A DNA stretch of 64,000 bases from Nymphaea colorata (taxonomy: Eukaryota; Streptophyta; Magnoliopsida; Nymphaeales; Nymphaeaceae): assembly GCF_008831285.2 (NCBI RefSeq), contig NC_045141.1, positions 12,944,106-13,008,105 on the forward strand, written 5' to 3'. Position numbers and translations under genes: made by a program. The notes under the pieces were generated by a model. The model did no database searches. It worked only from the letters and a program-made list of their open reading frames with translations, and had not been told where the DNA came from. This document shows positions 5,499 through 57,388 of the stretch, in pieces (within the stretch, counting starts at the first letter, position 1; every line of letters starts with the position of its first letter).

Positions 5499-5944
5499 AT
5501 CGCTGGACGGATCTTGTCGAACCGCAGGGGTAATAGGAGAAAACGAGGGCAATAGCAACAGCGACGGCGGATCGGAGGAGCGGCGACCGTGGCGTTGGCG
5601 GATGCTGCCCTGTCTTCCCTGCCGGTCAGATGCCAAAAATGAATATATTAGGGCAACAGAGAAAAGGAGGGCATCAGAGAGCAAGAGAGAAAGGGAGAAA
5701 GAGAGAAAGGGAGATGCCACAGAACCTGCGAGCGACGGTGATTAGGGCACTGATTTGGGAGAAGACGAGGGCATCAGAGAGCAAGAGAGAAAGAGGGAAA
5801 GATCACCGGCAGAGGAGCGGAGCAGCGACGGTGAGTGCGGCGACGGTGGGAGCGGCCTCTGGTGCGACAGTGAGAAGCGACAGGGTCGAGCGGGGAGGAG
5901 CTGCGGGCGGAGGGAGGAAATGAGGGGGAAGGGTGTCGAGCGCG
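5499..5944 (-). other. 5' leader and promoter region of AP-1 sigma
   Basis: GC-rich, purine-rich sequence directly upstream of the isolated ATG exon, so it probably contains the 5' UTR and proximal promoter. It holds an internal direct repeat with a 100-bp offset (a block starting GCATCAGAGAGCAAGAGAGA at 5671 and again at 5771). Open frames on both strands here are low-complexity GA/TC translations. No clear TATA box was found. Confidence 0.4.
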
Positions 5945-6027
5945 GGTGAGATTCCACCCGCTCCCATTTTACGGGGTGAATTTCACCACGTTTGCCCCAC
6001 TTTTAGTGGGGCGGGTGAAATTTCACC
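5945..6027. repeat. Foldback with three copies of a GGTGAAATTTCACC-type palindrome
   Basis: Outer arms at 5945-5960 and 6012-6027 are inverted copies with two differences. The right arm contains GGTGAAATTTCACC, itself a perfect palindrome. A third version (GGTGAATTTCACC) lies near 5975-5988. A small GCCCCACTTTTAGTGGGGC stem-loop sits between the last two. It may be a MITE remnant or a promoter element of the AP-1 sigma gene. Confidence 0.55.
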
Positions 6028-6650
6028 TATTCTTTCGAAAAAAAAAAAAACTTCAACCGATCAATCAAACGTCCCCTTAACATACGTGAACTTAAGTAGC
6101 CGACTTCCGGCTTGCTAACGTACCGGAGTAGCATGTGTGTTCGGGTCGGGAATGTTCCACCGTTTCCATGTTGAGTATTTTCATATTTTTATAAAAATAA
6201 TTTTGTTCATATTTCATTTGTTTTTTTTCTTTTTGGGTTTTTAATTTGATCATCTCCGGCTCTTAAGACATAGTCTCATGCTAGGGCCAAACGTACAACA
6301 ATGCCAAAAGTAATATAGTCAATTAAAAAGTTTTCAAATTTGAGTATGCTAATGCAATGACACTAAAACATTAATCCGTTCAAATTTCATTGACGCTGTT
6401 TTTCTCAAACGAGAATAGATAGAGGTTATATTTTCTCACTTGTTTTTATTTATTTTCTTTCTCTTACATGTTTTTTTTTTTATTAAGACCAAACAGTTTA
6501 GAAAAGCGACCGGAGGCTCCATCATTTTCATTGTTTTTGGGGTTATGAATTGTATTGGTATGAATGACGGCAACGGTGCACCTTTCAACTTATGGACCGC
6601 ATTTCACTTTTAAGATACAAACACATAGCACCAAAAATATAACAGAATAA

Positions 6651-17900: not shown

Positions 17901-19649
17901 AATGTTCGAGCTTTCTTTGGCAAATAACATGCAGTTGATCTCCAGTACAGCCGCCGCTTCTTTTTCAGTGCTCATGCCTTTATCATTTTTCTGGCGACTG
18001 ATGTTCATGTTCAGTCATTAGGCTTTTCATTGGCAGCTCTCAGACTCCAGTTTAAACTGTCCTCTTTTTATTGTTTCCACTCAGACGTTATCGATTTTGT
18101 TTTCAGAAGGACTGTTTATCGTTGTGGTTTGTTAGGGATTTTTGTTCGATCAATCTTTTAATCTGTTCCCTTAGTTTTTTTTTTATTTTTTTATTTTCTG
18201 TAAAAAAATCATGTGTAATGGGCCGCTGTTTACTGCTAGTCTGCTACTGCAAGTCTGTTTTGAAGTTCTTATTTGCAGAGTGCTTTTTATTGTGAACCTA
18301 TGATAGTGTGATGTATCATACTGTTACTGCAACTGTTTTTTTTATTTGTAGTGTTTTTTTAATTGTGAAACTGTGATGTATCGTTTCTGTTGGCTTGTGT
18401 TTGTGTTTTTGCTTGTTTGCAGTGTGTTACGAGTTACAACTTTTTGTTTTTTTTTTTTTTCATATTTGTAACTATGTTGTCTTAATTCTTATCATGGTAT
18501 ACAGTTCTCACTTCTCAAATCTCATGTTATGTTTTAAAATTTTATTATGTTAATAAATAATAACACTGTATAGTGTACAGGGTATCATTGCAGTGTTTTT
18601 TTAATTGTGAAACTGTGATGTATCGTTTCTGTTGGCTTGTGTTTGTGTTTTTGCTTGTTTGCAGTGTGTTACGAGTTACAACTTTTTGTTTTTTTTTTTC
18701 ATATTTGTAACTATGTTGTCTTAATTCTTATCATGGTATACAGTTCTCACTTCTCAAATCTCATGTTATGTTTTAAAATTTTATTATGTTAATAAATAAT
18801 AACACTGTATAGTGTACAGGGTATCAATATCATGTATGTTTAGTTTTTTCTGTTTAGATTATGTATTCATATAGAATTTGGTATTTGGTAATCTAAATTT
18901 TGAACTTGTCATTTGATAGTTCTGCTATTTAGAGACAATTTTGTGGCATATATTACTTATACCCTCACTGCAACCCCACACCCAAATTTGCATCCGCACC
19001 CATGTGACATAGAATCCACCTTCATAGAAATCTGACATTTTACTCCCACTTTGCAGTGTGACCTATATTTTCACAAATTTTCAGATTTTCTTCATCATAA
19101 ACACTGTAAGGTCACAGGCGACACAAAGACAATATGTACCTTCTGTTTCTTCAATACCTGCCAAATCACTAGGGCCCAGTTTGATGGATAGTTGACCAAC
19201 TTAGTCGACTAGTCAAGGACTACTTCATTGACCGACTAGTCCTTGTGTTGGTAAGTCACATTTGGTTTGCATTTCCAGTGTCATCAATATTGGTGCATAT
19301 CAGCCCATATTTGTTGATGCACATGTCGGCCCCTCATTGCAACAATGCCGGGTCCAACATGGTACTTCATAAATATTGACCAATATAAAACCAGTTTGGG
19401 CCATATTGTCCTTCATTTGCTTAGTCAGCCCGTATCAGAATAATAGTTAAACGTTAACGTTTTGATCTTAAAGTTTATTTATTTTTTATGCCTGATACTG
19501 CCTGATATAAGGATGATACTTATCATCTTTTGAGGGTGAAGCTGATATGCTGACATTGTTTTTTACCTTTTTTCTTACAAAACATCTTTAGGAAATATTG
19601 TTGCCTTTTCTCTTTTGTCTTTGTGTCATTTGCATAATAATTTTTTAAC

Positions 19650-22560: not shown

Positions 22561-25500
22561 TGTATATATATATATGCCTTTGTACCCACGTTTTCTAAAG
22601 TTGCCATGTTTGTACCCATATCTCCATACCCATACCTGAACTATACTTGTACCCATGTGACTTAGGCCAAAACAAAAAAGAAGCCAAAAAAGGTAAATAA
22701 ATGCATTTTTAGTCTTTCTGACATTTTTTATTTCTTCTCATTTTTTTGCATTTTATATTTACGATTTTTTAAATACTTTTAAATTTGTCGAGATTTTTCC
22801 TGAGATTTTCAACTTTGTATATTATACCCGAGAAAAATCTCTCCGTTTAAAAGCTGTAAATGATGTTTGTGACCATGCTTAGATCTAATGTATGGCTCCA
22901 TTGAACGATATACCCTTAAGATGAATTGCATTTGCCATTTTTTTTCCCATTACCATCATTAACTAGATCTGCAGATATCAATCATTTTTGTCCTAGTAAC
23001 TTGGATCCCTTTATCACATCTCTGTAGCCGTCCATAAAATATTGTGAAGGCCAATAAACTTGTTATTTAATGTCTTATCATGCTTATTTTAGGTCCAACG
23101 GTGCATCAAAGGTTATGAAGCAAGTTTCGAGGTTCTGGGGTGATCTAAAAGTACTTCTGGCTGACAAGGTCTACGTTGTAAATGTTTTAGGTACTTGTTT
23201 CTGTCTGTCACTCCAACATTATTTCTATCTTTGCATGCATAAGAAATCATAAGATCATGGCCAATTTTGTTGAACCACCATTCTGCCATAATAAATGGTC
23301 ATTTATCTGCAGTTTTGCACATTTATGCATGGAACTGTAGACTCTGAATTTGTCCATATAACTTTATTCCTTACTTGTTGCTCCTGATGTTTACTGAACC
23401 ATTCTGTCATTATAAATGGCAGTCTACATGCTGTTATGTATATTTGTGCACTATGCAGATCACAAATTGTATCCATGTAACTGCATTCTTCATTTTTTTA
23501 GTTCTTTGGTAGAATTTAATTCTTGTGAGCTTCTATTCCAAGTAAAACTTGAAAAACTGTTCTGTTCTTTTCTAATTGAATGATTATACTTTGTAAGTAA
23601 AGCCAAAAAGTAAAACATGAGAAACTGTTCTGTTCTTGTTTACATGACAGATTAAGTGATGCCTTAGTTTGATACACAAAAGAAAACAGGTCATTCTTGT
23701 TTACAGACTGGACAATGCTTGCATAATGCATATCTTATAGACTATTTCAGTTATAGACCTTATAGACTCGTTCTTTTGAATCATTTCAAACAAAAATAAT
23801 ATGAAATCAGTTCATATAATATACATTATAAGTTTACAACAGATTGTACATATAACATACAATATACATATAATACACAAAACACCCTCACAAATGAGAA
23901 AATAAATCTGTATTCAGGTTGCAAAAGTGAGGTCTGCATGTATTTTTCTAATTACTAGACATGCACTAAACAAGAGAAACTGGTGCTCTTTTTACCATAA
24001 ACCTAGGTTTTAGACCACATAAGATATATACAAAAATTCATTGGTTTCATAGAATATGTACTTAACGTATGGCTGGAATTTCCACTTGATGAGTTGATAT
24101 AGAATATGTAATTAACATACAACAAACTATACTTAAAGAACAAAGATTATATAATATAACTGCCTAGAATATAAGTATATACGGTATAACAGTGTATAAT
24201 AAAATTACATGACTTAATTTGGAGGGAAGGTGATTTTTCACCTTCCCATGGACTAGGCGTGCTAGCGCCTAGTCCAGCCTAGGCACACCTAGGCACCAGT
24301 CTAACACCTGTCCCCTAAGTTATGGACTTAGGCAACGGGTGTGGAGAGTCTGAAACTCTGCCACATAGGCCCTAAATGCCATATATGTGTTAGCCACTGC
24401 CTGCTAACTTCCACCTGCAACCAGAAATACTCACACAAACACATGGCCCTAACCCAGTTAGAGCGACCCTCACCAGAGGATATTCTCTCTTGCATCGATT
24501 ACCCCCTTGCGCCCTCCCAATTCTGTTATTTAAAGCTATTTTTCCGGGTCAACCCAGTAGACCTGATCCAGACCCGATTTTAGAACCAAAACCTGGACAC
24601 TAACATTACTCCTCCCTTCCAAAAGCACATTGTCCTCAAGGTCTGATGAACCAAATCAAATGCTGACAGACAAGAGTCCTCCAATGGCTACAGCCAACTA
24701 GGGCTGTAGCTAATAGTAACAACATGGCTCGACAATAGCCATGAATATGATAGTGTAAAGATACATTTGAAAGTCAGCTTCTCCTGCTTAAAAACTTCCT
24801 CCAAGTTGGCATGAGACAGTACTGCCAATAATGGCAAACCAGCTATTGGGTTATTGGAATATGCATTCCTTAGCTTTCTTGTTTTATATTTGAAAAGCTG
24901 TGGTTGAGGCCTGCATTTGGATTTGGTGCAAAATTTGCCAGCTCTAGAAGATGAGGTAACGACAAGTGGGTAGTATTCTGAAGCAGTCGGTCTAGGAACT
25001 TCTCAATTATTTAGTCTGGTGAAATGATTTGAGCAACTCTTGTACCAGTTTAGGTCGGTCCCACCTGGTAGCTTTTTCCTTTCCTTGAGATATCTCAAAT
25101 TCCTCAATAGACAGTGCATAAAGTTTGTCGACAAACATCTTAAAAATTGCCTCCACCTTCTCATCAATCCATCCAGGGTCCTTCACAGTGGACTGAATAA
25201 TAAACTGCAGTCCTTGAATTCCAGAGTCATTCCTCTGCATTAGCATCACAATGTAACCAAGCTGCTCAATTGTACGGGGCTGATGGAACGCTGGCTGCTT
25301 TGCAACAAGAACAATGAGCTGAAGCTTTGTATGTAGTACCAAAACATCCGGATCAACCGGAACATAGAATAATAGTGCAGAATTCTGATTATCTTGGTTA
25401 AGGCATTGAATGGAGTAGAAATGGCTTCTTGCAGCCTGAAGTTTGACAATTCTATTTGTCAAGAACTGTGAAGCAAACAAAGTCTTGCATATCTGTTCTG

Positions 25501-28500
25501 CAATATGAAACAATAAATTGTCAATGTCAATAACCAAGGTCTCTGCTTCACTAGGTCAAATGTTTCCTGCAGCATGATACTCAAAGAATGCCATGGAGAG
25601 CAAGAGTTGAGAAAATTTTGAGAGGTCTTCAGCTACAAGATGAACAAGAGCCTCAAGTTTTCCACTCCCAGGCCATGGATTGTCCTCCAATATTAGAGAG
25701 GAATAGTACATTGCCTGCTGATATGGCTGTCTAAACTTGAAGTTCTCATACAGTCAATACTCCTTTACCATGCTTTCCTTGAGCACAGTTTTTTTTTTTT
25801 TAGTTTTACTTCAAATTGAGCAACTTTTTCAATTATGGCATCCAACAATAGCTTCCTTTTGTAGTTGCATCCAAACACAGTCAACTAGAACCCAAAATCA
25901 GGTTGAGATATCTTGTACATCAAACCAGCTACTTGTGCATCATAAGCATAATCATTCAAGTAATCCATCAATAAAACGTGTGAAAATGTCAGTGACAACT
26001 TCTGCATCAGAAGAATGGCGTGACTCAGGACAGTTGAAATCTATCTTGACAAAATCTATCTTGTACCACAATCTTGAAAAGAAGTTTTGTTAGCAAAAAT
26101 GGATATTTGGCTTGCTGCACTTCTTTGATTGCTAATTCAGTGGGAACAAATAAATTTGGTGCAGGAAAATGAGGTTCATCATTAGGGGACGCATTTATCC
26201 ATTTTTTGTACAATGGCATCAGTTTTCTCAACAGAAAATTCAGTTTGTTTCCAGGACTCCATCATATGATTCATATCTATGTGGCCTTTAAAATTCTTTG
26301 ATTCCCAAAAGATCCTGAGGTTATTTGGAGTGAGATCCTTTAGTATCATGTAGATGGTATCTGGAGAGAACTTAGAAGGAAGTGATGATCCTACAAGGCA
26401 ATCATGTGGTGGATAGAGCGTGCCATCCAAGCATATCTCAGTGAATGTATGCTCAATGGTCGAACAACCACGTCGCCATTAAGGAATTCTTACAAAGTCC
26501 CAAAATGGATTTGATGACAGGCGAACCCCTCTGTTTTACTGCAATCCAAATGCCCAACATTCCCACTAGAGTATGCTTCGTCTCTGTTTCTAATTTCTTC
26601 TCAACGGACTCCTTGGTCTCGATTTCTAAGGCAGCTCTCTTTGAGAGCTGACATCTACTCCCTTCCAGTCCATCATGCTTAACTATCGTGCACACCGTGA
26701 AGCCTCTCACATTCCATCTCAGGAGACCCAGTCTGGTTGAAGGCAATAGAACCTCAGCAAGTATGAGGAAGGGAAACTAGACATGCCTCAGATGGCGAAC
26801 TTCATCTGCTGCTGGACTCTTACTTTCATCAATTTTTGGATCATCGGTAGTTATGCTGCTGCCTAAAGCCAAGTCTACTAATTCTCGTTCTTTGTTCTGA
26901 CAATCCTTGTTTGCTCCTTTCATTGGAAGGATGGGCATCGTCAAAGAGTCGACAAGCACTTTTGGTGCTTCTTTTATACTTCAATTTTCAATGGATTGCA
27001 AAACTCCACATGTGCCCAAGACATTGTCTCCTGAAGCTAAGTCGTTGTTACTTTCCACAAGAGGGTGAGGGCAACGGCTTGACATCTGTATTTTGTTCTT
27101 AGTGGAGTATCTCTTTTGTTCCTTAGGCTCACTGGCCGACCTTTCAATATCTCCATCTTAGAACGGTTCGGCACTACCTGCACAAATCCCCCAATCAATG
27201 ACGTTGGCTGCCATGGTTCGGCTCCAAGATGGTTTCTCAGGCTGCCTTATTCAGCCCCCCTTCCACTTTCTGGTGTTGCCATCTTTGCGTGTTATTCTAG
27301 GGGTGAAGGGATTCCCTGCCGCTAGTCCTCCCTCCATCAGCACCTCGTTCAACTCCGCATAGAAGACTCCATCAGCAACGTACTTTCGTTTCTTGCTTAT
27401 CTAAGACACCATCCTAGAGCCATCGTGGAGTGGTATAGGGACTTTGTCTCCTGATGTGAAGCTGTTAACACCTTTAGTAAAGATGAGAGCCAGGGTTCAA
27501 CCATGGTTTTTTGTTGTCAATTGAATGGCCACGTTCGCTGTATCAGGGGGGTTTCTCTGGCTGCTTAGTATGTTTGGCTCCATTTTCTTCTCGTCACCAC
27601 CCTTCTTGCTACAAGCCCTCTCTCCCTGTCTTCTGGTAGGCACGCCATGCTCTAACGCCTCCTTGGTTCCCCTTTTCCTTATATAAAGAACTAGAACTAT
27701 CATTCAACACATCCATTGACAACCTAGCTTAGCAACCAAGTTGTTGGCGATGACAAGACAATTTTGAATAGTCATACGCTGAATGATCTTGTTCCTTTCT
27801 GCATCCAATATGCTCCATGATAGCATCTGGAATTATTGGTGGAACAAGAATGTTGTGTTGCCGACTGTTGGCAACAAAATGACTTGGCAATGAAGCTTCT
27901 CTACCATCTGGATTGTGTTGCACGATGGTCCGATTACCTACTGCATGCTCTCCTTTTGGCTATAAGCATGGTCTCTGCAACAATGACCATTGATGCATTG
28001 TTCATGTTGAGTGCTTTCGTAAGAAACTGCAAAGGCAGGTGTTGCATCTTTTCTGGTTGTAACTGCTCAGAGGCTTTGGAGTCCTTGCAGAGCAACTCAT
28101 GGAACAACTCCTTAATAATGAATTGTCTTGAGCTAATCGTCTGAAATTTCTAGTCGATGTCGAGCATCTATTGATCGATCCTATCAAAAGTTAATTTCAC
28201 CTTCCATTCATCTATCCAACCCATTTGCTCTGCAGCGATCTCCATTAGGTTGTCGTCGGAGACTAGCTCTGATACCATTGTTAGCCAACGCTTGCTAACT
28301 TCCACCTGCTACCAGAAATACTCACCCAAACACACGACCCTAATCCAGTTAGAGCGACTCTCTCCAGAGAAAAATCTCTCTTACATCGATCACCTCCTTG
28401 CGCCCTCCCAATTCCGTTATTTAAAGCCATTTTTTCTGGGTCAGCCCGATAGACCCAATCCAGACCTGATTCTAGAACCGAAATCTGGACACTAACAATA

Positions 28501-31500
28501 TGACTTCAGAGTAAACCACCACCGGAAATCATCTGCCTATTTGGGAAGTAGGTCTTAATCCACCATTTTGTAGCCAAATGGAATATGTTCATTTATTATT
28601 TGCTTCACAGTGACTTGGAGGCAAGCTTCTTGTTTATTAATGATTGGATGAAACACTTCGTTTTTTTCCCCTTTGGTTTCCTTTTCGGCTAGAGAAGGAA
28701 AATGGTTGCATTAGAAAGTTAGAACATATATTCCAGCTGAGGAATCTGGACATTGTAATATGTAAAGAGTATCTTTTACTAGAGTAAGTTGTAGATGCTC
28801 TCAAAAATGGGATTTTGGAGCAAGTTTACAAGTTGTCACATGTCATTAGAATTTGTTGGTAAAAGAAAAATTTTGCTAGGCTCTACCTGGCACCATAAAT
28901 AAATAATCTAGGTTGTTCATGTAATCAAATGGATGGATCACCTGCAGAAATACACTTGTAAAATGCTTTCAAATTGCTCAGTTTTTGAAAAGAGGACACA
29001 AACAGGTTACAATGACAACGCAGAAACCACAATAGCCTTTAGGTGCAACAACTCATGTGATCTAATGTGAATTCATGAGACCAGGCATAAAACAGGTAGA
29101 ACAGAAATGGGTTGGATTTGTCACGGTGTGGTTTTCAATATAGTTAGCTAAACTTTTAACAAACTTACATTGTAACAAAAACTAATATAAATGATTGTAT
29201 ATTAACTTATTAAGAATACTAATATTAAGTATGCTAATCGAAAACAAGTCATCTTGTTTGAAAGTTAAATGATTGTGGAATTTAAAATTTAATAATATGA
29301 GTTAGAACTATATTTAAAATAAATAAAAAATGCTTCCTTACATGGATGGTTATTGAAAATCTTCTTTACCTGAACCTGCTATTGTAATATCAACCCTTTC
29401 ATTCTGCAGTTTTAGGAAGGAACTCTGCTATGCATCACTTTCATAATCCAACCATCAGCAGGAAAATTAGATATAATCATATTAAGTAGGTGAGATATGG
29501 TATGATTGAAGCAGGATCTTATTTAGGTTGGGTCTAATCTTAAAATGTCTTAAGCCCTTGTCAGGACTAAAAGTGGGTCTTGTTATAATAAATTTTTAGA
29601 TTTTGAAGTGTGTTGATTGTTGGTAAAGTATTTGTTGACTGTAAAACATACTTTCTTCAAATTCTGAAATTCATTTAAAAACTTGAATTTAGAAGTTATA
29701 AATTCGGATTCAGATGATATTTTAATTCGAATCGCATGTAAATCAAAGTCATGTCAAAAAGTTCTGAAACATGAATTCAAAAAATTGAATCTATTATGGA
29801 GTTTGATTTGTTGTCACAAATATATTTTGACTTGATAATGTTGACATTTTGGAGCCAGCTGATTATATAAGAAAAATATCCTCATATTTTCGAAATTTAG
29901 TGGTAATGAAACATTAAAATAGTGGTGATGTTATTTTGAGATATCCTCATATTTTCCTGGCACGTGGTAAAATGTTCTTTTTTTGGTCATTTTAAGCATG
30001 TAATGTTTTATTTTGTTTCTCTTATGATTTCAAAGAGCTTTCTACTTTTGTTTTTTTTTTTATATTTTTGCATGAAAAAAAGATGATTGTCATATAACTT
30101 GTACTTTGTGTGTATTTGTTTGTGGTCAAGGTCTGAAGCTTCTGAGATCTTCTCAATGATTTTTCCTAAAAAACCTACATAGTAAAAAAAATTCTGAGAA
30201 GAACCTTGCCAAGATTAATGTTGGTAACAGCAGTTTGAAATTTTGAATTAAACTTAAAAAAATTTAGACATTCAAAATTTTAAATTTAATTCAAAATTTT
30301 ATATTTGAATTAAAATTTTTCTTTTGGTGTTGGGTGCGTGTAAGTTCTATTGTGGATCTTAGGTACCCAACTTGGTTCAGTCATGAAAATGGCTGTGTTA
30401 ACAAAACATGATTTCAGCATATGCTTGCTCTACCAAGAACCAATCTGTTGCCCGAAAGGATACAAAGTTACTGATCCAAAGGCATGCATTGCCTGCAACG
30501 TCGTCACCTTTGGTCTTTTTTTTTTTTTCCAAATATTTGTTCTTTTTGCATAAATTTAACCTAATTACATCCTAACTGGAGAAATATATCTTTTCCTGCA
30601 TAAGCAGGCTGTACTTTAGTTAAACAACTTCTTGGTTCCAATTGACAGCTCTCCAGATTCCGGGGATATACAGAATAATGTTGGATACATCACTTGTGGA
30701 TTTTTTTTGATTTTCATTTTTTGTCAAATCGAACCCCAGTAAGATGGTTAGAACAAACTTGTTTTGCATGGTTGAACCTAGTTGGACTTATTGAATGACA
30801 AGACATCAGCTATTAGATCTTAGAAAACATGGGTTCTAGCCTTCTAGGCACATGAATATCATTTTATGGACAACCAGTCAACCTTTTCCACTCCTGTGTT
30901 AATGTGCAGAATCAAGATAGTTACTACTTTTTTATCCAGACTCGTATGTAGTTTTTTGTTCATATTTAAGTCTAAGTTCAAGTTTGAATCTGGTTAGTGC
31001 ATGCTTGATAGTTGCTATAGAATTCATGGTGGCTACATCTGGACCAAGTGTAATGGATTTACTGCTCCAAATTGGTGGAAAAGGGACCTACTGTCACAGG
31101 TTTTTGCATTTTTATATTTTTATGGTTGATATAAACTGGTCAATGGCCTTCTTTTCCACAATATTTTTACCATAATGCAGTAAAAAAAAAAAGAGTTACT
31201 ATCAAATACCTTGTGCAGGTAAGACACTAGAAGGGGATTTTCTTGTATTAATAATTTGTGTTTTCTAGGAATTTCTAATGTCCAAAACCAAGCAGCATTT
31301 AACAGAGAAAAAAACGATCTCATGAAAAGTTTTGTAGGTCTTCCTGTCCAGATGCGGGTAGTAAAAAGAAAAGATTGAAAACGAACAGCCATAATAACCT
31401 CAAGGATGTGCACAAACTTAAATAAGGTGATTGGTGCCTAATTTTTGTTGATCAAAATTTATTTCAACTGTTCTACCTAACAGCCTTGCCTAAGAGGACA

Positions 31501-38100: not shown

Positions 38101-41100
38101 CATGCTCAACTTGTTACAACATTTTGAGAATCCAAATATAGATGAGGGTTTAGTAAACATGTCTGCAACTTGCTCTTAAGTAGAAACATGAACTGTAGAA
38201 ATGTTCCCTGCTTGAACCATATCTCAAATATAATGACAGTCTACAATATATCTGGTCCTTTCATGAAATATTAGATTGTTGCCTATATAAGTTGCTGCCC
38301 TATTATCACATATCATCGTCATTGGGAGCACAACCTTTATTCCTAGACAGGTTAGCGTATTTTTGACCCACATCATCTCAGTGGTAGTTTGGGCTATTGC
38401 TCGATTCTTAGACTCTAGCTAGATCTTGCAAGTACCACTTGTTTCTTGCCAAGTAATTAAATTATCTCCTACAAAGATACAATACCTAGTTTTATATCTC
38501 TTGTCATTAGTCAATCCAACATAATGTTAGCCACCACTAATAGGTACAACCCCTTACAAGAGATCCTTGAGGAACACACACACATCGGCCGTAATCCCAG
38601 GTTAGTGTTCTCCTTCCAGAGGAAACACCAACTATTCTCTGCTATAATCCCTTTTTTGGCTTGTCGACCCCATTTATGGATGTTATCGGGTCAGTCCAAT
38701 GGGCCACGACCCGTGATCCCATGCCCAATCTCTAACACATAATCTGCATTCGTGTAAGCGATGATGTTAAGAGAGTCACATTTTTTAAATAAAAGTCCTT
38801 TGCCAGGAGATGCCTTGAAGTACTTGGGAATCATCATGGCTATTTCCCAATGAATTTTGTGTGGTTTCTCCATAAACTGATTTAACTTTCCCACAGTTAG
38901 AGAGATGTATGGTTGAATAACTGTAACATATAGGAGTTTGCCAATAAATGACCGCTATGACTTACTATCTATCAGTTTTGAATCATCTTGATACAATTGG
39001 AGATACAGATTCATAGGATTGTTTGCAAGTTTGGTGCCATGCATCCTAGTCTCCTTGAGCAAATCAATAATATATTCCCACATTGAGCTTTCCCTACTCC
39101 TTCTATTCCTAAGAAATATCTAAGTGGGTCAAGATGCTTAGTGACAAAGTACTTTTGCAAGTACATCTAGGTTTCAACAATCTCCTCCTTAGAGTCCCCT
39201 ATAAGAATGATATCATCAACATATTCTACCATCACCAGAATGTCCTTCATGATCTTCTTAGTAAATAATGACTAGTTAGACGGAGATCACTACAAATCAA
39301 CTCCCAACTAAGGCTGGGCATTGGCCCGGGCCGCTGCAGGGTACCGGGCCCGACTTGGGCCCAGGCCCGGGAAAAAGGGACCTGGGCCGGGCCGACCCGA
39401 TAAGCCCGATAATTTAATTTTAATTTTTTTATTAATATATATATATATATATATCTATATTTATAATATTTTATTATAATTAATTATATTTATATATTAT
39501 TTTATATTAAAAATATATTTTTAAATTTAATCTGGCCGGGCCCAGGCTCGGGTTTTCTGAGTTAGGCTGGGCTTGGGCCCGGTTTTTGGATGTCGGGCTG
39601 GCTCGGACCGATGCCCAAGCTTGCTCCCGACATCACTTCGTATAGCTTTTCAATCCATGTTCTTGGGCTTGCTTAAGCCCATATATGGCTTTCTTCAACC
39701 TATAAACCTTTTCACACTCTCCAATTCAAAGCTAGGTGGTTCTTACATGTAAATGGTCTCAACCAAATCACCATAGAGAAACACATAATTAACATCTAGT
39801 TGAGAGGGACTCCATCCATAGTGCACGGTTACAACAACAACCATTCATATAGTCTCTAGTCAGGCAACATGAGAGAGGGTCTCAAAAAAGTTCACACCAT
39901 AAGTTTGAGCATATACTTTAGCTACCAAGCGAACCTTATATCTCTCAAGCCATCTGAGAGATTTTTGATAGTATAGACCCAGCCAACTATATCTGCATCA
40001 GATGAAGAAGAAACCAATTCCCTTGTACCTCGAGAAAGTAAAGCATCCATCTCTACTTGCATTGTCCGCTTCCATTTAGGATTAAGAAAAGCTTGTTGAT
40101 GACATATAGGAATGGACGTGGTAGACAAGGCTGAGATAAATGTCTGCATATTTTTGCCAATTATTCCCATCATCCCATGTACCCTTGCGTAGGGAAATAG
40201 GCAAGACATCATCGCTAAGTGGAGCTTCTATAGAATAATCATGCTTAATCATAGTCTCGTCAGGCAAGACAAGGAGACTTACCTCTAGAGGAGATGATAT
40301 GGAGGGACCATGAGCAGAAGTGGGCCGTCGAGAGTAGACCAATGGTGGGTCTTAGAACCGGGTAGGAGAATGAGATAGAGTAGGCCATGACTCAAGAGGA
40401 GTAGGAGGGATAGACAAGGGAAAATTGTCACTAGTTTCAAATTGTATATGGTGACCAACACTGGAGAAGTATGGGACCGATTCAAAAGGTGACATTTGCA
40501 CTTAGTGCACAAAGCAAACACATCCAAACACTTTAAGAGATATGTGGAATAATGGCCCATTAGAGTGTATAATTTGAAGAGGGATTTGATTATCTATTGT
40601 TGAAGATGACATTCTATTAATAAGGTAGCAAGCAATAAGTCTAGCATCTTCCCAGAATGAAGCTGTCATGTTAGAATGTGTCATAATTGCACGGACCACA
40701 GCTAGAAGATGTTTGTGTTTCCTTTCAGCCACTCCATTTTGTTGGGATGAGCGAGGACAAGTGGTTTGGTGTTGGATTCTATTATCACGATAAAATTGTA
40801 ACCGTTGAGAGGAATTAAATTCAAGGGCATTGTTAGTGCGGACTACCTTGACAAAAAAGGAAAACTAAGTTTTTATTCCAATAATGGATGATTTGAGAAT
40901 ATAAGGTGCATCTGATCTCTCTTTTATTACAAAAACTCATGACAGCTCATCCACAATAACTAGGTAGTATCGACACAAAGACTTAGTAGGAGTATGACTA
41001 GGCCCCCATATATCCACATGTAGTAGTACAAAGAAACGATGACTAGATGGGAATGAGTTCCTATTGTGTTTTCTTATCTAACACTCATCACACTCAAAGA

Positions 41101-43778
41101 CATAGACAAAAAGATATGAGGGAAGACACAACGAAGCTTAGGCAATGAAGGATGACGAAGACATAGATGCCACTAAAATAAACTGGACGTATACTCCACA
41201 GATATATGAGGTCCACCAGTAGGTTCATTGAAGTAGTACACTCCACCCGACTCATGGGCTCCACTAATCGTCGTCCTTGTCAATAAGTCTTGAAACACAC
41301 AATGCAGAGGATTAAAAATCTCACAACAATTAAGATCTTTCGTTAGACAACTCACAAACAATAAGTTTTGTGGAAAGGCAGGGACACAAAGGACATCACA
41401 AATATGTAGATTGGGAGATATGGACGCTTCTCCCTTCCCAACAACAGGAGAAGCTCGGTCATCTGGCAAAGTAACACCGTGTGACTGTCATGTAAACAAA
41501 GACAACAATTTAATCAATTGACTATTGCTGCTACAAAAGTGCTGTGAAGCTCCCAAGTCAACGATCCATTGCCTAGTTGGGTGAGTTAGTATTACCTGCT
41601 GAACATGCTATATCTGTATCCACTGGAAAGCAGTCATTAAAGCAGAGTTATGGTCATGGGTAATTAGCTTGTCATATTATGCTTTGCTTAGGCGAACAGA
41701 ATCAGCTACAAGGGGGGCGATTGTCATGGTGACTGAAGTGGCCACCTTAGCCATAGTCTTGTTTGGAGCAGATGTTGAAACATGAAACCCATGCTTGTCC
41801 CAACAACAGTCTTCAAGGTGTCCCTGTTCTCCACACAAGGTACACTACAGTCTTCCCCTGCCACCACTCCTGCTTCCACCAGTACATCCTCGACCTTTTC
41901 CCCGTATGCTGCTCATAGTGCCATGACCTCATAAGAAGCTAAAGCAGCAGTAGGTGCATCAGAGGAAGAGTTAGGGTCGGATGTTGTGTCTGAGAGTCAT
42001 AGCAAATCTACTTAATCGATTGTAGGCATCCATAAGCTTGGGAATATCTAATCCTGTGAGCATATGTGCTTTACCAACCGAGTAATATGGAGATAGATCT
42101 GACATGAATCTTCGACCATCGTCTTCTCTTAATTAACTTTGCAGTGGAAGCAGGGAGGACTAACCGAATTGAGACTCTCATAGGCAGCCTTGACAGATGC
42201 ATAATATTAGGCAAGTGTTTGATCCCCTTGTTATATCTTGAAGATTTCATATTCAACTTGAAGGACACAGTTAACATTTTTGTCTTGCAAATACATAACT
42301 TTCAAGTTGTCCCACTTCTCCTTAGCCGTGAAATGATACACAAGACCATCTACAGTGTAGGGCTGCACACTATCCATAATCCATGGCATAACTATGTCAT
42401 TATCTTCCACCCAAGTAGCATACTTATCAATTTTCTTGTCTGGTTCAGGTTCAAGCAGAATATGTTTTCCTCGGTGCCAGGAAACTGACATCATGAAAGT
42501 CCTGGACCAGCATTCATGATTATAGTCATCAAACTTCACTGAAGATCCATAAAAAAACAGATTAGCAAAAGCCTTGTATTCAGTTGTAGCATAAAAAATT
42601 TTGATCTTTTAGAGTCTTCCATGATATTTGCTCATTGACCGAACACCAAGACTGAATTCTGTAGAGCTGAGACTTGTCTGAATATCTTGAGTTTCAACGA
42701 TAGATAGAGGTGATCCAATGGGACCAATGCAACAGTAGTGATAGCTTTATGGAAAAAAAAAATCAGCAGCAATAACCCTCAAAACTCCACATTATAGAAT
42801 AAAAGGTCCACAATGTAAGGCAGGGAATCAGCCCAAAATACTATCAACATAAAAATAGGAGCATCAAAATACCACGACTAAGAAGGTAGATGATAAATTA
42901 GGGCTTTCGAACCACAAAAGCTCCACGCTGAAGAGGGAATAAGCAGATCACGATGACCTTTTTGGTTTAAATCAGCTTACAGATTTGATAAATTCTGGCA
43001 CATCAAATCTGAAAATTTCAGTCAACAGCTGCTGCAGCAACTCCACCGGCTGATATGCTGACTAATATGCTGATTGACATAGAACACACAGCAGATACAC
43101 TCAGTCTGCTACAATCAACGACGTTTGCTACAGGGATCTGCCTTCAAAATCAACAACAACGAACAGGTTGGAGGTTGATCTCCAACATTGACTTCATCCA
43201 CAACGATGAGATCTGATTGCCTAAAAGGTTACTCTACCATCGGCAATCAAATCTAGGATCACACGGCTGCACCACCACTTCCTTCAATCAAAAAGACAAA
43301 AACCCACTTCTAAAGAAGAAAAAGAATAAGAGAGAAGACCGAGGAAGGAGGAAGAAGATTACTCAAGCAGCTTTCATGTCAGACCCTCCTAGGAACCGGC
43401 AGCCCTGATAACATGTTGAATATGTTTGAGAGAAAAGAGAATCATATATTAGATTAGCTCTAATCTCTCTTAAATAGAGTTTAGAGGGGAGATACACAGA
43501 TTACAAATAAGTCCATCCAGAAAGTAAAAATGATTAAATAGGGCACTAAGCAACTTTCTAAAATTCTAATAACCTCAATGCACTTAACTACTGTTCTCAC
43601 TATTAATATTGTAATCCAATTGATTTTTCTGCTCGGTCCTGTGTCTCTGTTTCATGTAAACAAATTAATTTTGCATTTTCTTTACATTTGTATATGTAAG
43701 TTGCATTTAGTTTGAGTATTTGGTACATGCTCATAAATTTCCAAGTTTCATACTGTAGTCTGTAGTTGATTGTTTTAA

Positions 43779-50481: not shown

Positions 50482-53333
50482 TTTCCTTTGTTTGATGGTA
50501 CTGGAGTGACATTTTTTCAGTGTATTGTAAAGTGTAAACTAAACTGATTAGTAGTAATTCCTCCAATGCCCTCGTTTTTACCTGTTGCTTACCCTGATTT
50601 TATTAATATTGAAGATATTCACTATGTTTAATTGTTCTTATTTTATCATTATGTATGTTGGGAAGAGCAATCCACATAGATGCTTGATGGAAGCTTTTGA
50701 GTAGGAAAATGTTTCTGTTCTGTGATTGATATGTGTTGCACTTGCACCTGTATTATGCAGACTAAGTGTTTGTTGAATATGCTCATGGTAGATCTGGTTC
50801 GCTATTTTAATATAGTTATGGCATCCATGCTTACTATTATGTTGTCATGACTTAGTTTTTGGACTTGTGATATCTTTTCTACAACTTTTTGTGTCTTCTA
50901 ATAGATCTTCAGAAGACTGACTTTTTGGTGCTTTAGTCCTTTCGCCTTGGCCAACGTCTCTGTTCATTGTACTCTCGTACATTTCTTATTTTCCAATAGT
51001 TTTCTCCACCCTCTTTTTTTGTAGCCTAAGAAGCTTCATCCATGGGTGAATCCCCCTTCTAAATACTATTGTGATGAGATGGAAGGTTGCCCCCTGGACA
51101 AGTGGGTCTGCCTAATGGCCCTAATCTATGCGAAGATGGGTATAGTGGGATAAGTTGCCTAATCTATACAAAGAAAGGTGTAGTGGGATGGGTTGGGTGT
51201 ATTGTTATATTGCAATGTGTGGAGAATTTCTAACGTACTTTGTACAAGTTTAAATGAAGTTTTGATATTCACTTTTCCAAGCTGATACCTTAACTCTTCT
51301 ACATAGTTTCTGCTAATGCAACTATTATGTCTATGTTCCTTTTTCTGTTAGTTATTCTTGTGGAACCTGTAGTTTGACGTGCACAAGGGTTGATCTGGCA
51401 CCTTCGTGCCTTTTCTGGCTCTTCTTCTATCAGCTTGTAGGCTGTCCGTTGGTGTGCCATCTCTGGATACAAAAGTTACTTTACTTGGTCGAATGATTCT
51501 TAACCACCTATGAGACCAATGTCTACATTCAAATCTCAACAGCCTTTCCTGCACCAGCAGATCAGATAGACTCTACATCCTATCCTTGTTCAGCTCCCTT
51601 TTTCCATTTGGAGAACGAGATGGTACCACCATAATGAGTGATTCATTGGAATATAATAAGAGGACCCCAACTATTTTGAAGGCTTCTAGCTTCATGATAT
51701 TTTCAACTTATAAATTTAACTAATTTTAACTTTTGGACCTTATGGATTGAAGTTCCTAGGTTCGATGATGTTTGATTTTCTACTTTTGGTATCTTTGTTG
51801 TATTTACTTGTTTGGGATCATGTCTTAAAGTGTCCTATGGTTTGGGGCCAGTGTTAGGTAGTGGAAGTCATCCTAGTTTCTTTGTACTCTCATGGTCGGA
51901 TATTTTGGATGACTTTAATACCATCTTCCAGGTTGTCTAAAGTTGATATATTTTACCTAAAACGGAAAACCAATGATAATGTAACTAAAACATGAATGAT
52001 GAAATGGCGATATTGGATAGGCTTACATACCCTGTTAAAGAAGATTCTGTATTGGATTGTGTAGGCTTATCTTTTGTGGAAGTCTGGCTGTATGTGTTTC
52101 AAAGGACTACTCTTTGAAGATTTTGACGAAAGGAGAACTTCTCATAGTTTTGGAGAATTCTCGGGCTTTATGGCTTATGCTACTGTAAGAGCATATCAGT
52201 TGTCCTCTAATGACATGCATTTAAAGAGGCAACAGGAGAAGGTGTGACTGTAGGGTTGTAAATTGTCCATCTCTACTTTTCCGAGCTTCTATATGCAGTT
52301 GGATGTTGAGAAGAATAGAAAAACTATTTTATTGAGTAAAAGTTTTGTTTATTATCTCCTTGCATTAAGAATTTTATGTGCCATAACCAATTTTCTCCTC
52401 CATGTCTTCCTAAATTTTTATCAGCTCGGGAGGGTACAGCCTGAAGAAAAGCAACTCTTGTTTAACGAGGAAGAAATGGAAGATGAATTCGCTTCAGAAG
52501 AATCTGAAGAAGAAAAAAGAGACGAGGAACCAGAAGAAGAAATAGATGATGAGGATGAAGATGATGATGAAGATGAAAGATTGATTGAGCCCAGCAAGGA
52601 AGCTATCTATGATGCTGAAGGTCTCCGTTCTAAGCTTGCTGATATCTCTTGGCCTGAAAATGTGGACTGGATACACAAACTTTGCATTGATTTTGACCCT
52701 GGGCAAGAGATAGATGTAAATGATGACCTGACTCGGGAGCTAGCTTTCTATACACAGGCATTGGAAGGAACAAAGCAGGCATTTGAAAAACTGCAGTCCA
52801 TGGGAATTCCCTTCCTCAGGCCTCCAGACTACTATGCTGAGATGGTGAAGAGCGACTCTCACATGGTTAAGGTGAAGGGCAAGCTCCTGATGGAAAAGAA
52901 GAAGTTGGAAGAAGCTGAAGAGCGAAGGAAAGCAAGGGAGGCAAAACGAATAGCCAAGGAAGTCCAGGCACAGAAGCTGAAGGAGAAAGCCAAGCAAAAG
53001 AAAGAGGAGATTGAATCAGTAAAGAAGTGGAGGAAACAGAGGCAGCGTAGCGGGTTCTCTGGAGGGAAAGATGAGATGAATTTCGATGAAGGTCCAAAAA
53101 AGCCATTTGCGAGGACGAATAAATTGAGGCGTGGGGTGGCTGCTGGTGATAGAGCGGGTGGTCATGGAAGGAAAGGTAAACCTGGAAAGAACAGAGAAAT
53201 GAGGAATGCCAAGTACGGCTTTGGAGGAGGGAAAGGTAAGAAGAGACAGAACACTGCAGAAACAACTAATGATCTCAGGGGCTTTAACCAGGGTGATGCT
53301 AAACGAAGTAAGAAAAGGAGACAGCAGCACTAG
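50339..53333 (+). CDS. EBP2: rRNA-processing protein EBP2 homologue
   Basis: Nucleolar factor needed for 27S pre-rRNA processing and 60S ribosome assembly. Exon 1 (50339-50401) encodes 21 residues with a Lys/Arg-rich end (KKVATRKKTKKSSK). Exon 2 (52425-53333) supplies the other 302, giving 323 in total. The junction is phase 0 between donor GTCTCT and acceptor TTATCAG. The order is as in the family: an acidic Glu/Asp stretch (about residues 33-72), then ISWPENVDW, the conserved ELAFYTQALEGTKQAFEKL and PFLRPPDYYAEMVKSDSHM blocks (about 125-170), a long basic coiled-coil (about 175-235) ending VKKWRKQRQRSGFS, and a Gly/Lys-rich tail with KRQNTAETTND. The open frame starting at 52263 includes intron sequence, so I reject that start. 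Exon 1 is assigned from its composition, phase and position. Confidence 0.9.
50402..52424 (+). other. EBP2 coding-region intron (2.0 kb)
   Basis: AT-rich, ends in a pyrimidine-rich TTTTTATCAG. Apart from the microsatellite at its start nothing is recognised. Confidence 0.7.
50404..50480. repeat. (CT)n(TA)n microsatellite touching a splice donor
   Basis: The EBP2 intron begins GTCTCTCT. CT units run to about 50423 and TA units to 50480, so the repeat forms the 5' splice site downstream of GT. Confidence 0.95.
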
Positions 53334-55491
53334 TTCATCTGTAGTTTATATCTTTATGTCAACAAATTTTCGTCTAGGTTTTTCATATTTTAGCATGGCA
53401 AGGATTTACAGTGCATGAAGTTTTTTATTCTCTTATTCCAAAGTCACTCGCCATCTTCTTTGCCTTCTTAATTCGTTTTATACTGCATCCTCGACGTGGG
53501 CGTCCAGGACACTTCTCTGCCAACTTACCGGAGCATTCTCTAGCGTCCCATTTTGAGAGCCTTTGGCGAATCAAAGAAAATTTCTTATGATGTGAAAATT
53601 TTCTAAAGGTATTTTCGTCATTGTGGGAAAATTATGTAAATGTTTCTGGGGTTCGAATGATCTAAGTGCTCCGGAAAATCAGGTTTTAATGAACTAATTT
53701 TTGTTGAATAAAGCCATTTTATTTACATCCCTATTTGACGTCCCTTGAGCTTGATAAGTGGTAAAGCTCGTGAGCCTTTATGGAATTTTCTGCTTATGCA
53801 TTTAATAATATTCGTTGGAGGTGTTTTTGAAGCAGGTAGAGTTTGAGGTTCAGACGATGACGCATTGTTCAAATATAAAAGTGCTACAAAACTTATGCGT
53901 CATTTCTTCCCTTTGTTCTTTATCTTCCACATCCGCATCATAAGTTACCACTCCGATGCAAACTCTTCTCAGACAGGGTCCTGTCTTTTTGATTAATTAA
54001 GAATGGATGAATACAAAAGCTGTATAGCCGGTATTACCATTTGGGTGATTGGGAGACCGAATCCTTCCTCCCTTTCCTTCTATCTTCAGAGTTTAGTGCT
54101 GCTTCAAGTGAGTTTGTGGTACACTGTCAACTATGTCGCACTACCATTATTTGCAGCATGGAAGAGTAGTGTCCACAGAAACTGACAGTGACTTGCCAGC
54201 TTGATCCGCTAAGCTACACCCCTTTGAACCCAGTGTTACTGTTCATTTAGGGCTGGTGGTGGGGATTCCATATGAGATAATGACTGCCAAGCCTAGTTAT
54301 CTCCCATGAAGCTCTTTGAATTAGCCATGGTTAAACCAGAGAAAGCAGTCATTCTGGACCTTAGCAATATCCTGGTCGATCACCGTCAAGCACCTTAAGA
54401 GGACAAAAAAGTACAAGCAGAAGCGAGGCTGTCAAAGTGTTGAGTTTCGTCTTACAGTGTAACATTATGCTTTGAAGGTGTTTGTTGGTTCAAGTTCTGA
54501 TGGAAATAGATCAATGGAAGCTGACCCACTTAGTGTCAAACCAAAATTCAAGCTGAAGGTGATATGCTCTTGTTTTAACTGGTTCGTTCCTTCAAGGCTT
54601 GCGCACCACACACATTCAATGGGCTTTCATCCGAGGCTCGTTTTCCGTGCCTAACAAATGGCGTTGAGGAAGAGGTATTCAGCATTCTGAGAGTCCAATT
54701 GATTCAATTCGTTCATTCTTTGGTAGGTTAAAACAACTTTGGCTGCGTAAGTTTTATATTGTTTGTGGGCCGCATTCAATCTGCAACTGATATGCATGAT
54801 ATTTAGTTAAGCTTCTTTTTTTCCTATTTGGTTGGATCAATCTTAATATAATCTCAACAAGAGTTCCGTATTTTATTTTTTTTCATAATTAGTGTGAGGT
54901 TGAAACTTTTGATAGAGCAGGTTATTTGTTATGTCATTCTTCTACTGTCATACGTAAAAAATGAAAAACAACATTTGCGGGTTGCCATATTTTACCTGTG
55001 ATGGTGAAATGACAAATACTCTCTACTTTTTGTGGAACCCTTTGAATTATTATGAAACTAGTGATCAATGATCTTTTATGCAAGTAACAAGTACATCTTT
55101 TACTTAAAAATTAAATACAGAAAACGTATATTTTCTTATGCTTGACAGTAAAAATTATATATATATATATACCCACACACACGTTCCAAACAATAGCCAC
55201 TCAAAAATCACGTAAATTTTACAATTGCAATAAAAAATTGTTCGGAATTTCAAAAATTCCCATTTTGCCTGTTATCGTGTATCTTGTTGTCCTTAAAAAA
55301 TTAAGGGTCCTTTTGCGAAATATTCGACCATTGACGGTTTCTGCGTGACCTTCACGCACTTGTTGTAAAGCTCCGTCGGGTTGTCCAAAACCAGGCGAAA
55401 CCGAACCGAAAATATTAACATGGCATAAGCATTTAAGTCTATTTTCTTTTGACATCTGTGATTCTTTGTCTTCTGCAACGCGTCGCCGGCC

Positions 55492-55522
<31 letters not shown>

Positions 55523-55538
55523 GGGAGAGGGAGAGGAG
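53334..55538. other. Intergenic region between EBP2 and UFC1
   Basis: Holds the EBP2 3' UTR at its left end and the UFC1 promoter and leader at its right end, with a GA microsatellite at 55492-55517 just before the UFC1 start codon. Small open frames around 54000-54650 have no recognisable similarity. Confidence 0.5.
55492..55517. repeat. (GA)n microsatellite in the UFC1 leader
   Basis: About a dozen GA units in the probable 5' UTR, 20-45 nt upstream of the start codon. Confidence 0.9.
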
Positions 55539-57388
55539 ATGGAGGGGTGGGATACGAAGACGAAGACGACGCTGACGAAGATACCGCTGCTGACGGTGAA
55601 GGCGGGGCCGAGGGACGGGGCGGCGTGGACGGAGCGGCTGAAGGAGGAGTACAAGGCCCTCATCGCCTACATGACCATGAACAAGTCCAACGACAACGAC
55701 TGGTTCAGGATCACCGGCAGCCCCGACGGAACTCGCTGGACCGGCAAGTGCTGGTACGTTCACAATCTCCTCAAGTACGAGTTTGACCTCCAGTTTGACA
55801 TCCCCGTCACTTACCCAGCCACCGCCCCCGAGATTGAGCTTCCCCAGCTCGACGGCAAAACTGCCAAGGTTAACCTTCGATACCCCATTCGTCTCGTTCA
55901 TTCGTTCTTTCTTTCTTTCATTCATTCATTCGTTCGTTCGTTCGTTCTTTCTTTCTTAATCTTCTTCTTTTATTTGATAATTTTTTCTTCCTTGTGTTTG
56001 GATTTCACTTATTTCTTTCTTTCTGTTTCCTAATTTCTTCTTCTGTTTGGTCATGTTTTTCCTTTTTTTTTTTGAATTTCGCTTGTTTCCTTTGCTGCAG
56101 ATGTATCGAGGAGGGAAGATTTGTCTTACTGTGCATTTCAAGCCGCTGTGGGCGAAAAATTGGTAATCGTCTTTCCCTTCTCCTGTTTCACATTCTGGTA
56201 GTCGTTGTTTAATTTAGCCTTCTTACTGGATTTACCGTTTTTGGTTCGTTTGGTATCATGGGTTTGAAATTTGACTATTTGGCGTGAAAAAGAGTGGGGG
56301 ATTTGGTGGAATGAAAATCTCTCCTTTGGTTAATCATCCTGAACTGATGTATACCCAGGAGGGGAATTTAGAAGAAGCGGATGCTTCTCTTTCTGTCAGG
56401 AGTTTTTGGAATTGCATAGATTCCATGTTGTTGCTTTCGATTGTTTAATGTGGTTTTCTCATATTTATGGAAGCTACATGGTTTTCTTCATTATGCTTTT
56501 GGTAAGATTAAGAGAGGATCGGTTGATCTTCATGGTGGATCCCGGTGTAACACCATTGATCTGGTAAGCGTATGGGGAAGAGGATTTAGTGGGTTTTAAC
56601 TTCTACATCAAAATTCTATGTTTTGGCAAATAGAAAATTTAGGGAGTTTACTTGATTGTCCGTGACTTTGGTTGTGAACAAGTGTCTTTTAGAAGTAGGT
56701 TCTGTGATAAAATGTTACGCCGGCTATGAGGTTCTCTAAGATGACCGGTTAAGCTGGTTTGAGAAAGTTGCTCAAAGCCTCAAACAACAACTAATGGCTG
56801 TAACCAGCACCTTAAGAATCTGCTCAGGTCATCATAAGTGTGCCGAAAGCATTGCTTACAGAGGATGATGTATAATAATCTCTCTATACCTATCTGAGCC
56901 TGTAATGAGAATGATGACAACTAACAAACGATGTTCTATCATGCTGAACCAATTGGTGCTAAGATGCAATGCTTAACAACTATGTTTGCTTAAATGTTTT
57001 TTCTCCCAAAAACTTCTGTTTTTATTGTCCTACTGTCTCCGACAAGAATCCAAATAATTTTTTGATGGAAAGATTTTAAGTCAACATAATGAATGTTGTT
57101 TTTTGTCCCTCAGCTTGTTCTATTGCTTGGTTCTCCTCTCCATGGTCCTATTTGAAGCAATAACAGTAATTGTTCTAGTTGTAAGGAGGAACTCCTAGTT
57201 ACGGGTAAAGATTGGGACCCTTCTCTTTTTTTAACTTAGGTGTGCATGTCTTTTGCAGCCCAAGGTTTGGAATTGCGCATGCTCTCTGCTTGGGTCTTGC
57301 TCCTTGGCTCGCAGCTGAGGTCCCTAACCTTGTTGAGACTGGCATGGTAAAACACAAGGATGATACAGCTCCTTCCATCGCTGCTTAG
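55539..57388 (+). CDS. UFC1: UFM1-conjugating enzyme 1 (UFC1)
   Basis: E2 enzyme of the UFMylation pathway: it takes UFM1 from the UBA5 E1 and works with the UFL1 E3, chiefly on ER-bound ribosomes. Exons 55539-55868, 56101-56162 and 57259-57388 join in frame to 173 residues (human 167). Diagnostic blocks are [61 protein letters not shown] and, across the first junction, [20 protein letters not shown]. The catalytic cysteine is residue 118 in GGKICLT. The chain ends with [22 protein letters not shown]-like sequence, here with N for D, and a short tail ending APSIAA. The start is the ATG just after a GA microsatellite; the longer open frame from 55449 reads through that repeat. AATAAA at 57437-57442, about 50 nt past the stop, may be the poly(A) signal. 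Exon 1 is much GC-richer than its surroundings. Confidence 0.95.
55898..55955. repeat. Tetranucleotide TTCN repeat
   Basis: Runs of TTCA, TTCG and TTCT units in UFC1 intron 1, starting about 30 nt after the donor. Confidence 0.85.
56163..57258 (+). other. UFC1 intron 2 (1.1 kb)
   Basis: GTAATC donor and TTTTGCAG acceptor; splits the Cys codon that follows KN. No element recognised inside. Confidence 0.8.

Follow-up and report, generated by a model that had tools for sequence, protein, structure and literature searches.

By what route does a run of host exons, already spliced, come to lie inside a retrotransposon? The question is raised by an element of Nymphaea colorata in a 64,000-nucleotide stretch of contig NC_045141.1 (positions 12,944,106 to 13,008,105 of the forward strand; this whole stretch is called the window below). 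The element is a non-autonomous long terminal repeat (LTR) retrotransposon of 4110 bp at window 24388-28497, with the minus strand as its sense, and it holds exons of the host gene for an insulin-degrading enzyme (IDE, an M16 peptidase) together with a fragment of the ribosomal protein gene uS3/RPS3. Based on sequence comparison, we favor with moderate confidence the reading that the IDE exons were spliced into element RNA before reverse transcription, and that an ancestor of the family would have acquired the two inserts separately.

The anatomy reported in the original prediction (LTRs with TGTTAG/CTAACA ends, an ATATG duplication, a tRNA-Met-type primer site and a polypurine tract at 24388-28497) was confirmed on the sequence in every part, and the element is laid out as follows.

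24383-24387, no strand: left target site duplication (TSD) ATATG, a 5-bp duplication flanking the element
24388-24605, minus strand: 3' LTR in element sense, with TGTTAG...CTAACA ends and 86.8% identity to the 5' LTR
24606-25093, minus strand: family internal sequence 3' of the IDE block, common to IDE-less relatives
24609-24620, minus strand: polypurine tract (PPT) GGAAGGGAGGAG, 3 bases from the 3' LTR
25094-26418, minus strand: captured IDE (M16 peptidase) block of 11 complete exons with 10 introns gone, containing frameshifts and stops
26419-27318, minus strand: family internal sequence 5' of the IDE block, of which 26609-26962 recurs in a multi-copy repeat
27319-27415, minus strand: captured cytosolic uS3/RPS3 fragment, spliced across RPS3 intron 1, with a stop in the window copy
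27416-28265, minus strand: 5' internal or leader sequence of the family, negative in domain searches
28266-28277, minus strand: primer-binding site (PBS) TGGTATCAGAGC, one base inside the 5' LTR
28279-28497, minus strand: 5' LTR in element sense, with TG...CA ends
28498-28502, no strand: right TSD ATATG, matching the left copy

We take TGGTATCAGAGC to be an initiator tRNA-Met-type primer site and GGAAGGGAGGAG to be the PPT. The position of the PBS places the 5' end of the element at the high coordinate and therefore its sense on the minus strand. Two TG...CA LTRs, a PBS after the 5' LTR, a PPT before the 3' LTR and a TSD within the 4-6 bp range identify an LTR retrotransposon. Its LTRs (218 and 219 bp) align with 190 matches, 22 transitions, 6 transversions and 1 gap, a Kimura two-parameter (K2P) distance of 0.144. 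The absence of a pol signature that had been predicted was borne out in the minus-strand frames: a Pfam search (E 0.01) of three frames each of 26440-28278 and 24606-25040 returned no gag or pol domain, and the IDE pieces matched M16-type families only, as expected of a non-autonomous element. Pfam and PDB searches likewise gave no matches for 26419-27318 in the frames tried and no further host protein for the pieces of the remaining internal sequence that were tried. The window element belongs to a non-autonomous family of plant LTR retrotransposons and has decayed; with its stops and frameshifts it is not expected to code for protein.

The IDE-like sequence of about 1.3 kb in the element's own sense, also part of the original prediction, was recovered by phmmer against PDB (E 6.9e-14 for the C-terminal piece, 2.9e-4 for the upstream piece), by Pfam M16-family models and by alignment to the parent gene, which defines its exact extent as 25094-26418 (1.33 kb, minus strand). 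The PDB matches lie at residues 455-512 and 755-899 of the human chain 2wk3_A (1019 residues); the block thus lacks the N-terminal catalytic domain. The parent gene is located at C6:14195816-14240138 on the minus strand, where 11 exons of 104, 103, 93, 190, 62, 105, 202, 209, 125, 52 and 87 nt (1332 nt in total) are spread over 44 kb today, including introns of 13863, 128, 96, 535, 1192, 3301, 94, 23640, 67 and 74 bp, nine of them GT-AG and one GC-AG. Joined together, the parental exons give a single open frame of 444 codons, so that the block is in phase 0 at both ends (1332 = 3 x 444).

The original prediction had further proposed that the element belongs to a mobile chimeric family that captures genes, with a search for further genome copies as the check. 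We ran this search with the IDE block (query 25094-26419; 27 of 27 candidates scored) on the window's own 408-Mb plant assembly (G000), in which the window lies on contig C4, and obtained 33 matches: five whole or nearly whole cassettes, two truncated cassettes (C1:41857415 and C7:2552070), 15 remnants of 50-61 bp and the 11 parent exons on C6. The five cassettes are those of the window, C8:9816633, C8:9747447, C9:1940468 and C1:21954105, the last without its final 38 bases in element sense. At four of these five loci (window, L009, L011 and L012) the cassette lies between two LTRs, which establishes the family as mobile and chimeric; the starting LTR of L012 is without its first bases, and L010 retains part of one LTR only. 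L009 (C8:9811500-9821000) and L010 (C8:9743000-9752500) have identical flanks about 69 kb apart, and the two C8 copies are best read as one insertion that was later copied by segmental duplication. Each of the two has direct repeats of 149 and 106 bp at its flanks. The expectation of many copies thus stands for the LTRs (at least 41 matches, with 40 of 88 candidates scored) and for the remnants, and falls for the whole IDE cassette, with its five loci. Five of the 15 remnants were read (L013, L014, L016, L024 and L025), four of which sit in a larger repeat. This repeat, as read at L013, L014, L024 and L025 (pieces 92-95% alike), contains a truncated family member in which about 60 bp of IDE remain, and places of its type number 14 among the IDE matches, on C10, C5, C6, C7, C431, C84 and C56, four of them read. 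The neighboring family members L017 and L018 hold truncated IDE pieces, and LTRs were not identified there.

All 10 introns are gone from the five aligned element copies, which read from exon to exon with no intron sequence in between. Individual joints have small gaps or insertions at them or close by (4/5 in L011 and L012, near 3/4 in L010, 2/3 in the window copy, near 6/7 in L009); across the whole block, L009 differs from the parent by one 3-base deletion and the window copy by eight indels. The IDE insert thus corresponds to spliced cDNA and not to genomic DNA. A second insert, also spliced, had been missed by the original prediction. The segment 27319-27415 corresponds to the start of cytosolic uS3/RPS3, from the start codon to about codon 30 (E 1.9e-11 for the best PDB chain, 1.7e-6 for a chain annotated uS3z). 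In the host RPS3 gene (C10:1038600-1039600), intron 1, of 102 bp, separates KRK from FVADG, and the element is continuous at this point. The fragment also aligned in L009, L010, L011, L017, L018 and L021 (partly deleted in L011), six loci selected for matching this region. Since introns are gone from both inserts, both derive from spliced RNA. A 42-bp stretch at C7:23437607-23437648 matches window 27207-27248 at 90% and is a candidate third captured source.

The edges of the IDE block bear on how it entered. The upstream edge coincides with the parental 3' splice site, TTTTTCAG preceding the cut and CTTTATCC following it, in all five whole-cassette copies. The downstream edge, GAATTTGAG, coincides with the parental 5' splice site (followed by gtgaaa in the parent) in four of the five; GAATTTGAG has one mismatch in L011, and L012 departs from the block earlier. 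With a mean exon of 121 nt, the chance that two random breakpoints both fall within 1 nt of an exon edge is about 0.0006, a figure obtained by arithmetic and not by simulation. We then compared relatives of the family that have no IDE block. For the downstream junction nine were fetched, of which four could be aligned (L028, L042, L043 and L047), while L022, L044, L045, L046 and L048 do not align across it, being deleted or diverged. In all four alignable relatives TACAG directly precedes the shared element sequence. For the upstream junction four relatives were examined, and one of them, L041, has GTATAA within two bases of the edge. The element frame just upstream of IDE is in frame with it, and in L010 and L011 no stop interrupts the part shown; it contains stops in L009 and L012 and is shifted in the window copy.

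From these splice-site edges, shared by several copies, we infer entry by splicing. An ancestor would have gained the uninterrupted run of 11 host IDE exons, in spliced form, when a cryptic donor in element RNA joined the acceptor of the IDE exon beginning LYPP, and the donor of the exon ending in EEFE joined the TACAG acceptor in the element. The joining may have taken place within one read-through pre-mRNA in which element sequence enclosed the exons, or trans-splicing may have brought it about. The resulting chimeric RNA would have kept its PBS and PPT, been reverse transcribed in trans and then been inserted; the family presumably moves with borrowed reverse transcriptase and integrase. 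The spliced start of the uS3/RPS3 mRNA would have been gained in a separate event.

Several observations weigh against this reading. First, in all four relatives the reading frame around TACAG is open and continues past the junction (Tyr-Ser or Tyr-Arg), and the frame of L041 stays open through its GTATAA; at most, these would therefore be cryptic exonic sites, which may have been conserved for coding reasons. Second, the upstream donor is seen in one of four relatives, L041, two bases off register, whereas L049 is deleted there, L020 is not alignable, and L039 is poorly aligned with no GT at the junction. Third, the four relatives of the downstream comparison share ancestry and count as roughly one observation. 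Fourth, the IDE exons that adjoin the captured set at its two ends were not pinpointed in the parent gene, which makes the claim about the boundaries dependent on the relatives. Fifth, the 60 kb read at the parent locus showed no sense-strand remnant of the family next to the captured exons, and the read-through form is therefore not directly supported.

Among the alternatives, copy-choice is the strongest, and we regard it as possible though clearly the less probable. Here, reverse transcriptase would have left the element RNA for a co-packaged IDE mRNA, already spliced, and then returned, in each case at a short homology that would happen to lie at an exon end, and splicing between element and host RNA would not be needed. 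This accounts equally for the missing introns, and the open frames around the splice-like motifs of the relatives agree with it. It also has a candidate homology: GAATTT is common to the IDE exon end GAATTTGAG and to the relatives' GAATTTTACAG, downstream in L028 and L043, so that a template switch at this microhomology could mimic the downstream junction. The 3' edge of the RPS3 fragment falls inside an exon, as template switching would yield, and the RPS3 capture for this reason looks like a separate, template-switch-like event. Template switching is moreover an accepted route of capture, given next to read-through transduction in the available text of PMC13317346. On the other hand, copy-choice leaves it to coincidence that the two ends of the IDE block match parental splice sites, and what separates GAATTT from the junction is GAG, as in IDE, instead of TACAG, as in the relatives.

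An event at the DNA level, by Pack-MULE- or Helitron-like insertion or segmental duplication of genomic IDE with the introns lost in later retrotransposition, appears improbable. In its favor, pieces of the element do occur within large repeats of this genome, and a genomic insertion followed by splicing would also yield exon-edge junctions; however, no intron-bearing intermediate occurs among the 33 IDE matches, and the parental stretch, introns included, is 44 kb long today. Pack-MULE and Helitron carriers have terminal inverted repeats or helitron ends, whereas the window element has LTR ends and a 5-bp TSD; on this anatomy and the absent introns, a DNA transposon was rejected as the carrier. 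Least credible by far is an ordinary IDE processed pseudogene with LTRs flanking it by chance, which would explain the intronless IDE part but is contradicted by identical junctions at several LTR-flanked loci, and which in its LINE (long interspersed nuclear element) type comprises a 3' mRNA end plus poly(A), whereas this block consists of internal exons with element sequence on both sides and its window copy has a PBS, a PPT and a TSD.

The search of the parent locus also returned short matches to family queries. With L028 there was one match of 22 bp, and with L016 there were five in both orientations, including 38 and 144 bp in sense. The L016 sense matches were not counted as a family remnant, as they lie in or next to L016 3926-4268, a segment that is missing from L012 and resembles a separate insertion. 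A 57-bp antisense match (81%) to the family 3' region was found at C6:14194956-14195008 with L011 as the query (47 bp with L039), in an IDE intron, some 0.8 kb past the final exon of the captured set. L018 matches repeats in IDE introns, one of which has a hAT-like open frame, named by eye. L039 (C1:10614400-10623700), a family member with a 9-kb LTR pair, was considered as an autonomous partner and rejected: a further pair of repeats within it (647-909 and 5914-6169) encloses the RVT_2 and copia gag domains, which thus appear to belong to a nested Ty1-copia element. No target duplication was established at the L039 flanks.

Returning to entry by splicing, what would have happened to the cassette afterwards? 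At least three LTR variants can be told apart among the elements that contain the cassette. LTR identity (gaps ignored) is 87-92% within the group of the window, L009 and L026, 71-76% between the window and L011, and 68-76% between the window and L012. Between the window and L011 the transversion difference is 0.21-0.26 in the LTRs, compared with 0.043 in the 5' internal part, 0.045 in IDE and 0.068 in the 3' part. The simplest reading is that recombination between co-packaged element RNAs would have moved the cassette between LTR lineages, while internal deletions would have trimmed it. K2P distances of the IDE copies are 0.094-0.127 to the parent and 0.062-0.128 among themselves. All five copies share a base absent from the parent at 45 sites, including 23 in the first or second position of a codon, and this fits a single capture followed by spread. 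The LTR-LTR distance of the window element exceeds the IDE distance between the window and L009 (K2P 0.085); since the excess is mainly in transitions (22 transitions and 6 transversions in the LTRs, 61 and 43 of 1300 sites in IDE), we claim no selection. More generally, cryptic splice sites in element RNA, whether read-through or trans-spliced, might trap whole blocks of host exons ahead of reverse transcription, and complete, phase-symmetric sets would then be shuffled around the genome and passed between LTR lineages by recombination; we offer this wider proposal tentatively, at somewhat less than an even chance.

Other features of the window include an inverted-repeat-like segment at 24220-24387 directly beside the insertion (GAAGGTGA with TCACCTTC, ACTAGGCG with CGCCTAGT), by eye possibly a miniature inverted-repeat transposable element. 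Copia-like remains lie on the minus strand at 40502-40864 and 42231-42608, with an integrase-like stretch seen by eye (no Pfam match) and a weak gag match below the cut-off. The host genes EBP2 and UFC1 (part) are on the plus strand at 52254-53333 and 55437-56033, and 18346-18826 holds a tandem duplication of about 242 bp with 98% identity.

How does this element compare with known systems? Capture of host exons by plant LTR elements is already known. Maize Bs1 is described in the available text of PMC13317346 as a non-autonomous LTR element with pieces of three host genes, and in that of PMC4717578 these pieces are exons only, in contrast to Pack-MULEs, which carry exons and introns. The window element resembles Bs1 in having intronless exons of more than one host gene between LTRs, and differs in the genes concerned (IDE and uS3/RPS3), in its 11 whole IDE exons, in its splice-site edges and in the presence of at least three LTR variants. 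Soybean GmaRetroS15, a terminal-repeat retrotransposon in miniature (TRIM), likewise carries pieces of three host genes, one of them exons 5-9 without introns (PMC4717578, available text). The gene-carrying TRIMs described there share LTRs, 5-bp TSDs and exon-only host pieces with the window element and occur in two or more copies with two exceptions, yet at 1172-1449 bp they are far from its 4110 bp; splice-site-bounded capture and insert-free relatives are not mentioned in that part of the account. A survey of host genes within LTR elements counted 672 in rice and 1343 in sorghum (PMC3726574, main text as available); insulin, peptidase M16 and ribosomal protein are absent from that text, which leaves the capture mechanism unsettled. 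PMC13392006, in the part available, names IDE merely as a reference gene for quantitative PCR.

In the literature searched, we found no splice-site-bounded capture by a plant LTR element. What is new here, as a variant of a reported phenomenon, is the edges bounded by splice sites, seen against insert-free relatives, and the presence of one cassette in different LTR variants. Pickup of host genes by LTR retrotransposons has mostly been inferred from its product, whereas this single genome holds the parent gene, insert-bearing copies and insert-free relatives, which allows a direct comparison at the two edges. Since these coincide with splice sites of the parent, the idea that retroelements shuffle exons taken up through RNA splicing becomes testable. 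The read-through-and-splice model of retroviral oncogene transduction works alike. In retroviral transduction one edge is a splice junction; in this plant non-autonomous element, both edges appear to be.

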